Assembly: GCA_016217545.1 (NCBI GenBank)
Contig: JACRHT010000002.1
Coordinates: 1 to 64,000 of the forward strand
Reading direction: 5' to 3'
Origin: Opitutia bacterium
GTDB lineage: Bacteria; Verrucomicrobiota; Verrucomicrobiia; Opitutales; Opitutaceae
Length of the DNA stretch: 64,000 nucleotides
The translations under genes were made by a program, and so were the position numbers. The notes beneath the pieces were generated by a model. That model worked only from the letters and a program-made list of their open reading frames with translations, was not told the origin of the DNA and ran no database searches. Positions 28,135 through 33,184 of this stretch are shown in pieces (within the stretch, counting starts at the first letter, position 1; every line of letters starts with the position of its first letter).

Positions 28135-29433
28135 TCAGAACTTGAAGTTCATGCCACCACGGATGCCCATGGCGTTGCCGAAATCGATCTTCGCCGTGCG
28201 GCCGCCCACTTCCATGTCGTAGGAGCCGAACTTCTGCATGTTCACGCCGGCATAGAAGCCCGTGCGCTCGGTCGCGGCCCAGTCAAGGTTCACGTCGGCG
28301 TAGAGACCGCCGAGGAACGCGCTCTTCGCGTCGTCCGCCTCTTCGGTGATCGGCTCGGGCAAGTCAGCAACGGTAAGGCTTTCGAAGACCGTGTAACGCG
28401 TGCCGCTGAAAGCGCCCGCCATGCCGATGCTCGCGCTCAGGCCGAGACGCTCGGTCAGCTGCGCGCGGATTTGCGGCCCGAGGCGCAGCATGAAATAGGC
28501 GCCCTTGATCTTCCAGTTGCCGTCGATCGCCGCGCCACCTGCCGTGGTGACGGTCTTGCCCGTGCCGGCGACGGTCGTGTCGGGCGTCGCGCTGACGGGC
28601 ACGGTCGTTTCGAGCGAGTTGTCATTGCCGTCGACGGTGGAATCGAAGTCCCCGAAAGTGGGACCGCTCTTCACTCCGTCCGGCAACGTGCCGCCGAGGC
28701 GGAAATAGTCGCTGTAAACCGAGAGCGTCGCGCGCACGGCGCCGCCGGTCTTTGAGTGGACCGGGTTCAACGCGATGCCGCCGGCCAAGCCCCACTCGAA
28801 GCGATTGCCGAGCTTGCCGAACGCGCGGGACATCGAGAGTTCGATGCCGCTGTTCATTCCTTCCTTTTTCTCCGCGAAGGCACCTTCCGATCGTGCGCTG
28901 TAGTTGCTCATCCGGAGCAGCGACCCGTCGATCAGGCCGGCGGAGGCCGCCGACCACTCGCGGCTGAAGGCGGCGTTGTAGCTGAGTCCCTCGCCCACCA
29001 CCTTATCGGTCAACGGACCGCCTTCCTCGGCTCGCGTCACTTGGTGCGCGCGATAGCGGCCATTGCCGATCGGCTCACCGTAAAAGGTCGGCGTGCCCAC
29101 CTTGGTCGCCTGATCGGGCGCGTTCTTCGTTTCGAACGGGTCGCGCAGCGCGTCCTTCTTCACGTAGCCGGTGTCGTAGACGTAGTTGCCCGAGGCATCC
29201 GGACCAGTCGTGCGAATGCTGGAGATGCTACCGAGGTTGCCGAACCGCACCGAGGCGCCCTTGTTCAGGATGCGAACGCCGAAATTGAGGTTGTTCTTCG
29301 GCACATACCATTCGTCGGTGGGAAGCGTGAGGGCGAGATTGGCCTCTTCGTCAGTGGACGACGCGGATTGCGCAAAAGCCGGGGCAACGAGCGCGGCCAA
29401 CAGGGCCACCGTGGAAACGGAACGAAGGTTCAT
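28135..29433 (-). CDS. Outer-membrane beta-barrel-like protein, function unknown
   Basis: A 432-residue exported protein. The signal peptide is clear (MNLRSVSTVALLAALVAPAFAQ). The mature part alternates amphipathic strands with Gly/Thr-rich turns and ends in NFKF; the C-terminal Phe is typical of barrels inserted by the Bam complex. Segments such as FGVRILNKGASVRFGNLGS recur in uncharacterised verrucomicrobial proteins as far as I can recall. It is not a recognised transporter class. It lies just downstream of the ParA operon on the same strand with 59 bases between, and has its own terminator. Confidence 0.75.
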   Translation of the reverse strand: MNLRSVSTVALLAALVAPAFAQSASSTDEEANLALTLPTDEWYVPKNNLNFGVRILNKGASVRFGNLGSISSIRTTGPDASGNYVYDTGYVKKDALRDPFETKNAPDQATKVGTPTFYGEPIGNGRYRAHQVTRAEEGGPLTDKVVGEGLSYNAAFSREWSAASAGLIDGSLLRMSNYSARSEGAFAEKKEGMNSGIELSMSRAFGKLGNRFEWGLAGGIALNPVHSKTGGAVRATLSVYSDYFRLGGTLPDGVKSGPTFGDFDSTVDGNDNSLETTVPVSATPDTTVAGTGKTVTTAGGAAIDGNWKIKGAYFMLRLGPQIRAQLTERLGLSASIGMAGAFSGTRYTVFESLTVADLPEPITEEADDAKSAFLGGLYADVNLDWAATERTGFYAGVNMQKFGSYDMEVGGRTAKIDFGNAMGIRGGMNFKF

Positions 29434-29492: not shown

Positions 29493-30224
29493 CTACGCTT
29501 TTTCCCTGATTTCCGGCGGTTCGTCCCCTCCCAAACCGAGTTGCCGGGCCTTCCGCTTCAAATCGTCCGCGAGCTGCTCGAGTTCCGTTTCCTTCTCCTG
29601 CTGGTCCTGCATCTTCGAGAACAGCCTGGCTTCGCTCTGCTCCAGAAACTCCTCCCGCTCGCGCAGGGCCGCGCGCTGCTCCTTCAATGCCGCTTCCTGT
29701 CGGTCGAGCTCTTCCTTCAGCTTCTTGAACGCCTCAAATTCCTCTCCCGAGACGGCCGGACCGGCGGCAACCGTTTGTCTTCTGGCGGCCGCCACGACGC
29801 GTTCGCGGGCCGCCAGAAGCGCCTCCGCCTCGGCCAACTCCCGCTCGCGCTCCGCCAGCCTCGCCTGCGCCTCGCTCACCGCCAAATCGCGTTCCGCAAG
29901 TTTCGCCTCCAAGGCTCGGATCGCTTTCTGTAGTTCGTCCACTTGGGTGCCGCTGAGTTTCGGCGCTTCCCCACCCCACGGAGTCCGCGATTGCGCGAGG
30001 ATCGCATCGATCGACTTCCGAGCCTCAACGGTCGCCGCACTCGTGGCAGCCGCTGCCTCCTGCGCCCGCAGCAACGGACTGGCACGACGCGGCAGAATCA
30101 GGGGCTTGCTGCCGCCGCCCGAGGGCTTGGGCGTGACGATGCCCGGAGGCGCCACGAAGCTCGGGGGCTTCGGGAACGGCGGCGGGAGGCCGGCGGCAGG
30201 GGGCGGGTTGTTCTCCACGCCCAC
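29493..30224 (-). CDS. Coiled-coil protein of the ParA operon
   Basis: A 243-residue cytoplasmic protein without recognised family. The N-terminal 55 residues are Pro-rich (AAGLPPPFPKPPSFVAPP) and probably disordered. From about residue 85 to 232 it is an almost uninterrupted heptad-rich coiled coil (VDELQKAIRALEAKLAERD and following), ending in an acidic tail. The start is GTG at 30224, three bases after the previous gene's stop, with a second GTG two codons in. It is the third gene of the ParA operon. It could be a scaffold or cargo adaptor, but that is inference. Confidence 0.75.
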   Translation of the reverse strand: MGVENNPPPAAGLPPPFPKPPSFVAPPGIVTPKPSGGGSKPLILPRRASPLLRAQEAAAATSAATVEARKSIDAILAQSRTPWGGEAPKLSGTQVDELQKAIRALEAKLAERDLAVSEAQARLAERERELAEAEALLAARERVVAAARRQTVAAGPAVSGEEFEAFKKLKEELDRQEAALKEQRAALREREEFLEQSEARLFSKMQDQQEKETELEQLADDLKRKARQLGLGGDEPPEIREKA

Positions 30225-30227
30225 GAA

Positions 30228-31184
30228 TTAACGCCCAAACAGCCGCGAAAACAAGCCGCCCTTCTTCGGCGCGACCGGCGCCGCAGCGGAGGAATTCAGC
30301 TTCGACGCCCAGGCGGCGCGGAAAAAACGCGCGGCGATCGCCTCGCGCACCGGATCGCCGATCACCACGAGTTCGCGCTCCAAGGAACCGCCGGCGTTCA
30401 GTTTCGCCACCAGAGCGGCTGCCGCATCCTTGAACCAGTCGAGCGTCGCGTTCACGGCGGTTTGCACACGCTGCTCGGCGCGGGCCTGCGCATCCGCCGA
30501 CAACCCGGCCGCCGCCGCCTCCGTGCCGGCAAGCTTCGCGCCGAAGGCCTTGGCCAAGGCGACCTGTTCCGGCCGGCCGACCGCGGCCGCCGCGAGTCCG
30601 AGCGCCTCCGGCAAATGGAGGCCACTCGAACCCTTCCGGAACGGCAAAAACTGGCCGATACCTTCCTCGTCGCCGTGCGACAGCGCGTTCAGCAAGGCGC
30701 GGAAATCCCCGCCGATCACGACGCGCGTCGACATCTGCTGCGCGAGATTGGCGAACTCGCCGATCGTCGCCACGCCCTCCGACGCGCACACCGCGCGTGT
30801 GCCTTCGCTCAGATTCACCAACGCGAGCGGGTAGGCCTCCGGAATGCCAAGGCGACCGAGCGTCTTCAGCACGGTGTTTTCCTTCGATGCGCTCTCCTCG
30901 ACCTGCGCGACCATGTCGCCAAACGGGTCGTCGAACGCGAGTGTCTCCTTGAGGATGCCGATGAGGTGATCGACGCGCTTCTCGCTGCCGGCGATCTCCG
31001 GCAGCATCAGCAACTCCTCATAGTTGAAATCGATGTATTTCGACGGCTTCTCCTCCTCGCCTTTCACCGGCCAGTCGGCGGTGTCGAGGTTTTGCGCGAG
31101 GCTGCTCAGCGAGGTGTCCGCCATGATGGAGCTGTGGAAACGCTTGCGGACGTCTTCCCAGTCTTTCGCGGTGTATTTGGCCAT
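30228..31184 (-). CDS. ParA-partner protein with C-terminal amphipathic tail, function unknown
   Basis: A 318-residue protein that I cannot assign to a family. An acidic, helical N-terminal half (MAKYTAKDWEDVRKRFHSS) is followed by a helix-hairpin-helix-like stretch (LGIPEAYPLALVNLSEG, about residue 115). An Ala-rich helical region comes next. The last dozen residues, KKGGLFSRLFGR, form a short basic amphipathic helix strikingly like the membrane-targeting tail of MinD (KGFLKRLFGG). A strong Shine-Dalgarno (GGAGGA, five bases before ATG) supports the start. It lies 11 bases after the ParA gene. The tail suggests a peripheral membrane partner of the ATPase. Confidence 0.75.
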   Translation of the reverse strand: MAKYTAKDWEDVRKRFHSSIMADTSLSSLAQNLDTADWPVKGEEEKPSKYIDFNYEELLMLPEIAGSEKRVDHLIGILKETLAFDDPFGDMVAQVEESASKENTVLKTLGRLGIPEAYPLALVNLSEGTRAVCASEGVATIGEFANLAQQMSTRVVIGGDFRALLNALSHGDEEGIGQFLPFRKGSSGLHLPEALGLAAAAVGRPEQVALAKAFGAKLAGTEAAAAGLSADAQARAEQRVQTAVNATLDWFKDAAAALVAKLNAGGSLERELVVIGDPVREAIAARFFRAAWASKLNSSAAAPVAPKKGGLFSRLFGR

Positions 31185-31195
31185 GGTGTCCTCCG

Positions 31196-32089
31196 TCAGG
31201 TTGCGGGCGCGTGCCCGACGATTTCGGCGGCGAGCTGGCGGTAGTCGTTCGTGACGCTGTCGGTCTCCGTGCCCTCGGAGCCGACGAGCGCGACCGGCAG
31301 GCCGAGCGTCACGGCGCGTCGCACGACGATCGCGTCGCGAATTTGCGTGGAGAAAATCTTCGCACTCGGCGCGCAGCCGCGTTTCTGCGCCTTGAATTGA
31401 TTCAGGCGGAGCTGCATTCGCATCTTCGGCACCTCGATGTCGACGTTCGTCTTGATCGCGTTGAACACGATGCCGTAGACCTGCGCCGAGGGCCCCATCG
31501 CCGCGGTGCGGAAGCTCGCCGAACTCTGCTGGAAGCGCATGAGTTTCTCCACGAGCAGCGTGAAACCAATCAGCGACAGCGCGTCGGGATTCGACGGCAC
31601 GTAGATCTCGTTCGCGCAGAAAATGGCGTTTTGCGACGCGCGCAGGATGTTCGGCGGGCAATCGAAGAGGATGACATCGTAGTCCTTCTCCACCTCGGCC
31701 AGCTGCTCCTGGAAGATCGCGTAGCTCGGCCGCTTCGGATCGGGCTTATATTCGCCCTCGAGATCGACGAGGTTGAACGTCGTCGGAATCAGATCGAGGC
31801 CCGGCAGGAGCTTCTCGCCCTCCTTGCCCTCGACGACGCTCTTGATGATCAAGTCGCGCACCCGCGCGGTGCCGGGATCGAAAATCGAATAGATCGCGCC
31901 CACGCCGCTGGCGTTGATCTTGTTCCAGCGATCGAGCTTCAACAGCCAGATGCTCGCGTTCGATTGCGTGTCGAAGTCCACCAGCAGGACCCGCATCCCG
32001 CGTTGCGCGAGCGCGGCGGCGGTGTTGACGATCAGGGAGGTTTTGCCGACGCCGCCCTTGTAATTAATGAATGCGATTTTGCGGGCCAT
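31196..32089 (-). CDS. ParA/MinD-superfamily ATPase (orphan, no ParB)
   Basis: Walker-type positioning ATPase of 297 residues. The deviant Walker A motif KGGVGKT with signature lysine K11 and catalytic K16 is at the N-terminus (MARKIAFINYKGGVGKTS). The A' box VLLVDFDTQSNAS follows, and Walker B is VILFDCPPN. The C-terminus shows no MinD-type membrane tail and the N-terminus no HTH, unlike plasmid ParA of type Ia. No ParB or parS-like site is nearby. It heads a tight operon with a tail-bearing partner and a coiled-coil protein. That arrangement points to intracellular positioning rather than chromosome segregation, which is inference. Confidence 0.9.
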   Translation of the reverse strand: MARKIAFINYKGGVGKTSLIVNTAAALAQRGMRVLLVDFDTQSNASIWLLKLDRWNKINASGVGAIYSIFDPGTARVRDLIIKSVVEGKEGEKLLPGLDLIPTTFNLVDLEGEYKPDPKRPSYAIFQEQLAEVEKDYDVILFDCPPNILRASQNAIFCANEIYVPSNPDALSLIGFTLLVEKLMRFQQSSASFRTAAMGPSAQVYGIVFNAIKTNVDIEVPKMRMQLRLNQFKAQKRGCAPSAKIFSTQIRDAIVVRRAVTLGLPVALVGSEGTETDSVTNDYRQLAAEIVGHAPAT

Positions 32090-32686: not shown

Positions 32687-32791
32687 GCGTTTACCGCCGC
32701 GCGTGCCCGACTCAGCGGCGCCCCACGCGATTTCACCTCGTCGTAACGCAGCCGTCGCACGCGCGCCACATTGCGATGCCATGCTGCGGCG

Positions 32792-33184
32792 ATGCCCGCC
32801 GCCCACATCCTCGCCGTCGACGACGAACCGGAAATCCTCGATCTGATCGCCTATCAGCTCCGCAAGGCCGGCCACTCGGTGGCGACCGCCGGCAACGGCT
32901 GGGAAGCGCTCGCCGAAGTGCGGCGCCAGCGCCCTGACCTCATTCTCCTCGACCTGATGCTGCCGGACCTCGACGGCTTCGGCGTCTGCGAAATTCTCCG
33001 CCGCGACGCCGCGACGGCGACGATTCCCATTGTGATCATTTCCGCGTGGGCCTCGGCCGACTCGCGTCACCTCGGCCTCGAACTCGGCGCCCTCGATTAC
33101 CTGACCAAGCCGTTCAGCCCGCACGAGCTGGTGCAGCGCGTGAATCGCCTCACCGAGGTCCGTGCGGACCGAGCGGCAAACTGA
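32792..33184 (+). CDS. Single-domain response regulator
   Basis: A 130-residue stand-alone receiver with VDDEPE at the N-terminus, the phosphorylatable Asp in LILLDLMLPDLDGFG, Ser/Thr in IVIISAW and the conserved K in YLTKPFSPHEL. No output domain is present, so it works by protein contact or phosphorelay. The start is the ATG giving MPAAHILAVDDE; an in-frame TTG 21 bases upstream is less likely. No kinase is adjacent. It is convergent with the tonB-like gene, with three bases between. Confidence 0.92.
   Translation: MPAAHILAVDDEPEILDLIAYQLRKAGHSVATAGNGWEALAEVRRQRPDLILLDLMLPDLDGFGVCEILRRDAATATIPIVIISAWASADSRHLGLELGALDYLTKPFSPHELVQRVNRLTEVRADRAAN

Follow-up and report, generated by a model that had tools for sequence, protein, structure and literature searches.

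Three adjacent genes at 29493-32089 of the 64,000-nucleotide stretch of Opitutia bacterium DNA that we analysed (the window) encode a ParA-type ATPase and two co-inherited partners, and we consider it moderately likely that together they form a PomXYZ-like, nucleoid-based positioning system of three components with a membrane-tailed adaptor. A literature search among open-licence papers found no description of such a system, in agreement with the first-pass annotation of this DNA, which had proposed it as undescribed. The open reading frame coordinates confirm that neighbouring genes are separated by 11 and 3 bases, as reported there, and the features of the unit are as follows:

31196 to 32089, minus strand: ParA-type ATPase gene, 297 aa; deviant Walker A motif KGGVGKTS, basic residues conserved in the C-terminal third, no membrane tail
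30228 to 31184, minus strand: gene for the adaptor (the tailed protein), 318 aa, helical; homologue of an alpha-CTD/sigma-region-4 type protein, with a MinD-like basic-hydrophobic tail at its end
30231 to 30266, minus strand: the adaptor tail KKGGLFSRLFGR, its last 12 residues, from the sequence read and the alignment
29493 to 30224, minus strand: coiled-coil protein gene, 243 aa, GTG start; Pro-rich basic N-terminal region followed by an acidic coiled coil

Scanning the genome collection with the adaptor gave 49 loci, all labelled Verrucomicrobia(ota) or a subgroup of it, and most of them are from Opitutia, Opitutales, Opitutaceae or genera that we take to belong there. Named species account for three of them (Cerasicoccus arenae, C. 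maritimus and C. frondis; the NCBI taxonomy places Cerasicoccus in Opitutia, Puniceicoccales), so the system should be accessible in culture. The ParA gene lies immediately upstream of the adaptor, on the same strand and 10-268 bases away, in 47/49 loci; the sequence of locus L009 begins at the adaptor, the 6 kb that precede the frame-broken adaptor of L055 contain no ParA match, and two frames share the ATPase match in L035, L038 and L050. Partners regularly found away from a ParA neighbour had been named as a possible refutation of the proposal, and the loci present no such pattern. Downstream of the adaptor, the coiled-coil gene was detected by BLAST in 43/49 loci (in L053 as a short segment only) and by profile in L040 and L044, making 45/49. 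At L045 and L048 the sequence ends before the position of this gene, and at L050 and L055 neither BLAST nor the profile detected it. Two further genes were considered as parts of the system, one at 28135-29433 with relatives in 31/48 loci and the IspH gene beyond it (29/48 loci), counts in which many loci are too short to display these neighbours. We rejected both because L029 (Cerasicoccus) and L027 share only the three genes with at least four other loci.

At the level of genomes, the adaptor was found in 29 of 288 sampled from the phylum, all belonging to the window's order (29/43 order genomes sampled), and a second sample of 93 genomes from the class gave 10 adaptor matches, every one of them again in that order. 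An ATPase of this type (at least 369 bits) occurs in the same 29 genomes; two order members outside the 29, G220 and G286, have a relative that is 45-48% identical, and outside the order ATPase matches never exceed 128 bits. The coiled-coil profile matches 28 of the 29 adaptor genomes and none of the 14 others of the order, the exception being G131, where the ATPase is accompanied by a distant adaptor and the coiled-coil protein is missing. The profile also picks up other, longer proteins in which this coiled-coil motif accompanies a receiver domain; the genome-wide match in G158 is a protein of this kind, and there the open reading frame beside the adaptor matches as well, at 55 bits. Co-occurrence of the three genes has a Fisher p of 1.9e-10, calculated without correction for kinship. 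Together with the neighbourhood survey, this marks the three genes as a conserved, co-inherited unit and supports the earlier proposal of an undescribed ParA-type unit.

The set can be kept without being linked. In G172, the ATPase (~3,443 kb), the adaptor (~2,882 kb) and the coiled-coil gene (~4 kb) are spread over one contig of 3,987 kb, and G039 and G048 carry the coiled-coil gene on a different contig; in all three genomes, the unlinked coiled-coil gene encodes a protein of the usual length with a Pro-rich start. The set can also be lost. Three genomes that share a genus label differ: G140 has the full set and G085 has none, and in G257 the adaptor is truncated and an open reading frame resembling a transposase interrupts the coiled-coil gene, a pattern that looks like joint decay of the system. 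A second unit in G257 (L083) consists of an ATPase and an adaptor with no coiled-coil match. Some loci and genomes in these two surveys appear to be the same assemblies (L014/L057 and L017/L059), and the surveys therefore do not count as independent samples.

The ATPase matches Pfam AAA_31 (E 1.5e-35) and has the features of the ParA/MinD superfamily, namely the KGGxGKT deviant Walker A motif and the aspartates of Walker A' and B, with K11, G12, G13, G15, K16, T17, D38, D40 and D143 unchanged throughout the 31 sequences aligned. The solved structures most similar to it are Soj proteins (best PDB match E 5.2e-15), and basic residues at positions 222, 224, 228, 233, 236, 244, 251, 257 and 258 recur in 93% or more of the 29 ATPases aligned. 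Sequence and alignment show neither an N-terminal extension nor a C-terminal amphipathic tail, the protein ending in AAEIVGHAPAT. It scores 43.4 bits against the MinD family model TIGR01968, below the cut-off of 212.9, and 38.7 bits against Pfam MipZ (cut-off 20.7), where the best stretch, residues 5-44, covers the shared P-loop only. None of the three proteins of the unit has a ParB family match in Pfam or NCBIfam, and the two partners do not provide the ParB that stands beside parA in a ParABS system. Earlier described as an orphan ParA with an intact KGGVGKT motif, no membrane tail and no ParB nearby, the ATPase retains the first two of these descriptions, and the third holds for the three proteins of the unit.

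The window's own genome (5.09 Mb in 17 contigs) has six AAA_31 matches: the ATPase described here, a Soj-like ATPase on contig C16 that is 25% identical to it, and four others that are weaker and fall in open frames of 472-769 aa. We thus saw no further stand-alone, MinD-sized AAA_31 match in this genome. By family matches, the ATPase and its system fall within the ParA/MinD superfamily, yet are neither MinD nor ParABS nor a demonstrated Pom system.

The adaptor end, KKGGLFSRLFGR, does resemble the membrane tail of MinD as the first-pass annotation had observed (E. coli K-12 MinD ends in KKGFLKRLFGG), and the tail is indeed carried by the second protein and not, as in MinD, by the ATPase. We aligned 45 adaptors, the window's and those of 44/49 loci, omitting L024, L040, L045, L048 and L055 as extended, having an alternative start, cut or frame-broken; the adaptors of L024, L040 and L055 likewise end in basic-hydrophobic tails. 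In all 45, the last 14 residues have a charge of at least +3 (mean +4.1, against +0.2 in the preceding 26 residues) and hold 3-6 bulky hydrophobics, following a variable linker. Loss of the tail among orthologues had been another possible refutation, and its basic-hydrophobic character is instead present in 45/45. A simple tail pattern combined with a charge of at least +3 is found in 39/45 adaptors and in 2 of the 439 other open reading frames of at least 150 aa from the window and 48 loci, and one of those 2 is the adaptor of L024, which lies outside the alignment.

A hydrophobic-moment test was weak, with 10/45 tails at p <= 0.1 against shuffles of the same 14 residues, so it is from the likeness of the tails that we infer membrane binding by the adaptor. 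In G172, G039 and G048, paralogous units pair the ATPase with adaptors that have no tail, which indicates that not all ATPases of this type depend on the tail. Both observations would suit a different reading, unlikely though worth serious consideration, in which the tail is a protein-docking peptide that binds cargo or the coiled coil and the system is a purely cytosolic, nucleoid-based positioner; docking peptides can be short basic-hydrophobic tails. Against this, the likeness to the MinD tail is strong, and the character of the tail is kept while its exact residues vary, which suits a membrane better than one specific binding site. We favour the membrane-tailed adaptor.

Neither the adaptor nor the coiled-coil protein has a Pfam match above the cut-off, and in that respect the adaptor deserves its earlier description as an unfamiliar 318-residue protein. 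It does, however, have relatives. Between the adaptor profile and L089, a 445-aa protein of G257, the alignment spans 286 columns (hhalign 98.7%, E 1.7e-16); L089 matches sigma-70 region 4 (E 1.6e-8) and, below threshold, alpha-CTD (E 0.0087). The score of this alignment is 118, compared with at most 24.6 for 82 other control open reading frames (the control set numbered 88, of which 6 are relatives and were set apart) and at most 18.4 for five shuffles of L089. This profile alignment supports shared ancestry of the adaptor with a DNA-binding-type (alpha-CTD/sigma-4) protein. Retention of DNA binding is not supported: a Pfam scan of the 45 adaptors recognised no alpha-CTD, sigma-4 or HTH domain, and comparison with the C-terminal domain of the genome's own RpoA gave 2% probability. 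Two other matches, to baeRF_family10 (Pfam E 0.0024, under the cut-off) and to T2SSF (8/45 members, best E 0.00055), we put down to chance helical similarity.

The structure of the adaptor is predicted confidently as nearly all helical (mean pLDDT 87.9). With the whole model as query, no PDB match reached E <= 0.001 and the best of the 234 chains aligned had a Z of 3.4; the sequence profile gave two PDB matches, the better at E 1.3. The central domain (residues 101-203, pLDDT 86.4) gave six matches at E <= 10 and none at 0.001, and Z exceeded 2 in 2/20 chains, the N-terminal domain of RAD51C (Z 4.1, 61 residues, 3.0 A) and a segment of a DNA polymerase (Z 3.6, 66 residues, 4.5 A), both of which we take to contain helix-hairpin-helix-like domains. 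These model-based matches are a hint only, and the dearth of better ones does not imply a new fold. The 286-column homology and these weak fold matches could also be read as signs of a transcription factor in the adaptor, with the ATPase acting as a regulatory switch and the unit controlling gene expression from the membrane. We consider this improbable given the Pfam and RpoA results above, and the linked coiled-coil protein better suits a scaffold.

The third protein is Pro-rich with a coiled coil, as first described. Its N-terminal region contains LPRR and is probably disordered, and the acidic coiled coil that follows has a heptad-like consensus with a conserved LKEREEFLEQSE...KMQxQQEKETELEQ stretch. 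In 26 aligned proteins, the window's included, taken from the 43 that BLAST detected, the N-terminal region always carries a net positive charge (mean +6.3) and the remainder is acidic (mean -14). This region in the window's protein is 20% Pro and 17% Ala, with Pro ranging from 3 to 29% over the 26. A match to FlbB (22.4 bits, cut-off 110) we ascribe to coiled-coil similarity. A Pro/Ala-rich N-terminus joined to a coiled coil is the make-up of a PomX-type activator, a correspondence of layout only. According to PMC10241942, it is with a positively charged, disordered N-terminus that the partners act on ATPases of this kind, and the N-terminal region of the coiled-coil protein fits this rule. 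By charge layout, it is the coiled-coil protein, rather than the adaptor, that is the likelier activator of the ATPase.

The mechanism that we propose would run as follows. On binding ATP, the ATPase would dimerise and bind the nucleoid by the conserved basic residues of its C-terminal third. The coiled-coil protein would self-assemble into a scaffold, and its basic, Pro-rich, disordered N-terminal region would stimulate ATP hydrolysis as PomX does with PomZ. ParA gradients would then move the complex over the nucleoid, and it would be held at the membrane, or handed to it, through contacts with the adaptor, whose C-terminal amphipathic tail would dip into the inner membrane.

As to what is positioned, our leading guess is the division site, because MinC was not found in the sampled order (0/43 genomes, compared with matches in 6/14 control genomes). 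A more specific version is a hybrid machine: a PomX-like scaffold, tethered to the inner membrane by an adaptor derived from a transcription-type (alpha-CTD/sigma-4) protein, would be carried along by a ParA that walks on the nucleoid, and the machine would set the division site where MinC is not found. We regard this speculation as rather doubtful. We compared cargo markers between the 29 order genomes with the system and the 14 without it, bearing in mind that such correlations are confounded by kinship and genome size. Microcompartment shell genes (19/29 with the system, 2/14 without, p 0.003) and CheW (18/29 and 2/14, p 0.004) are more frequent with the system, and they are missing from 10/29 and 11/29 of the genomes that have it. 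For flagellar and pilus genes, this comparison shows no significant association with the system: FlhA is present in 14/29 and 3/14 (p 0.11) and missing from 15/29, and PilM_2 in 25/29 and 12/14 (p 1.0), the latter a weak test given that PilM_2 also matched in 9/14 controls, its matches probably including FtsA-like proteins. Flagella, chemotaxis and microcompartments were rejected as sole cargo, many system-bearing genomes having no such marker, as were pili, whose marker is equally frequent in genomes without the system. The enrichment of shell genes and CheW would favour a local version of FlhG, ParC or McdAB that positions one of these known cargoes, a reading to which we attach little probability given the genomes that lack each marker, the FlhA and PilM_2 results and the confounding; chemotaxis or microcompartment cargo retains some probability.

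How division sites are placed in bacteria without Min, and how orphan ParA ATPases find their partners, are open questions, and here we have a ParA accompanied by two co-inherited partners. If the proposed system is real, it would represent a third arrangement beside the nucleoid-based systems (Par, Mcd, Pom) and the membrane-based one (Min), linking both surfaces, and a DNA-binding-type protein would have been recruited as its adaptor.

With MinCDE, the system shares an ATPase of the ParA/MinD superfamily and a C-terminal tail of the same kind. It differs in that the tail is on the partner instead of the ATPase, in the absence of MinC matches from the 43 order genomes and in an ATPase score below the MinD cut-off. 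The contrast with Min drawn by the first-pass annotation therefore stands as to the position of the tail, but a membrane-binding partner is not unique, since E. coli MinE is described as binding the membrane. ParABS (Soj-Spo0J) likewise has a nucleoid-type ATPase, Soj proteins being the best solved-structure matches; in contrast to it, the partners here have no ParB family match, and a Soj-like ATPase is encoded elsewhere in the genome, on C16. Carboxysome positioning by McdAB, set beside our system by description only, likewise combines a ParA-type ATPase with a partner that is not ParB, but 10/29 genomes with our system have no detected shell protein. McdAB consists of two proteins and is not known to have a membrane-tailed adaptor.

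The statement that known ParA-like positioners use other partners needs amending, as the closest analogue, PomXYZ of Myxococcus xanthus, was not named there and has a similar partner layout: a ParA-type ATPase accompanied by two further proteins, one of them Pro/Ala-rich with a coiled coil and basic residues in its N-terminal part, the two systems being compared by layout alone. PomXYZ is characterised by a cluster on the nucleoid that directs FtsZ to midcell. According to PMC7993993, residues 27-182 of PomX are 23% Pro and 19% Ala, and the coiled coil lies in 222-401. The activating peptide of PomX is at its extreme N-terminus, whereas basic residues are spread in the coiled-coil protein here, and the third protein of our system is an alpha-CTD/sigma-4 relative with a membrane-like tail. 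We know of no membrane tail on PomY. By analogy, PomXYZ would be the closest working model for this system, with the membrane-tailed adaptor replacing PomY.

Relatives of the ATPase and the adaptor of the trio (the minus-strand genes for the ParA-type ATPase, the 318-residue adaptor and the coiled-coil protein) also occur together in a paralogous unit, and a further relative of the adaptor carries a sigma factor domain.

L086:4770-9766, minus strand, paralogous unit, also found in L087, L088 and L091
L089:3006-4340, minus strand, protein of 445 aa that combines sigma-70 region 4 with an alpha-CTD-like part

In L086 and L091 the paralogous unit consists of a membrane-type protein, a Ser/Thr kinase (in L086 matching Pkinase at E 8.8e-29), an unknown protein, an ATPase and a distant adaptor. 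The ATPases of the paralogous units are 60-65% identical to that of the window and the adaptors 24-27%. The adaptors of L086, L087 and L088 have no tail; that of L091 ends in a basic-hydrophobic stretch. The 445-aa protein is related to the window adaptor across 286 columns.

L093:5534-6082, plus strand, and L094:3808-4323, minus strand, acidic low-complexity protein divergent to a related ATPase

This arrangement was seen in genomes G286 and G220, where searches for the adaptor and the coiled-coil protein found no match to either. The acidic protein, which ends in PASLLDSYFKG plus one residue and in L093 has no match in Pfam, is possibly another type of partner for the ATPase.

L107:437-1624, L108:157-1437 and L109:605-1747, all plus strand, receiver and coiled-coil proteins (G158, G134, G128)
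Window 32771-33184, plus strand, receiver-like gene just past the divergent neighbour of the ATPase
Window 28135-29433, minus strand, protein with a signal-peptide-like start, 3' of the trio
L090:2528-4895, minus strand, split coiled-coil gene of G257

The EREAFLEQSE motif of the coiled-coil protein is also conserved in a coiled coil fused to what reads as a response-regulator-like receiver domain. The window receiver-like gene has relatives in 21 of the 48 compared loci, and a signalling link is possible. Relatives of the downstream gene lie 3' of the trio in 31/48 loci; its product, with nothing in Pfam at E 0.1, would by its sequence be of outer-membrane type. The coiled-coil gene of G257 is interrupted by an ORF resembling a transposase, which looks like ongoing decay.

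L027:11180-12223, minus strand, 348-codon open frame with a MinD-like end

This frame, which had no Pfam match at E 0.1 and is reminiscent of a type VI secretion TagF-like protein, ends in PKGFLKKLFGG, nearly the tail of MinD.
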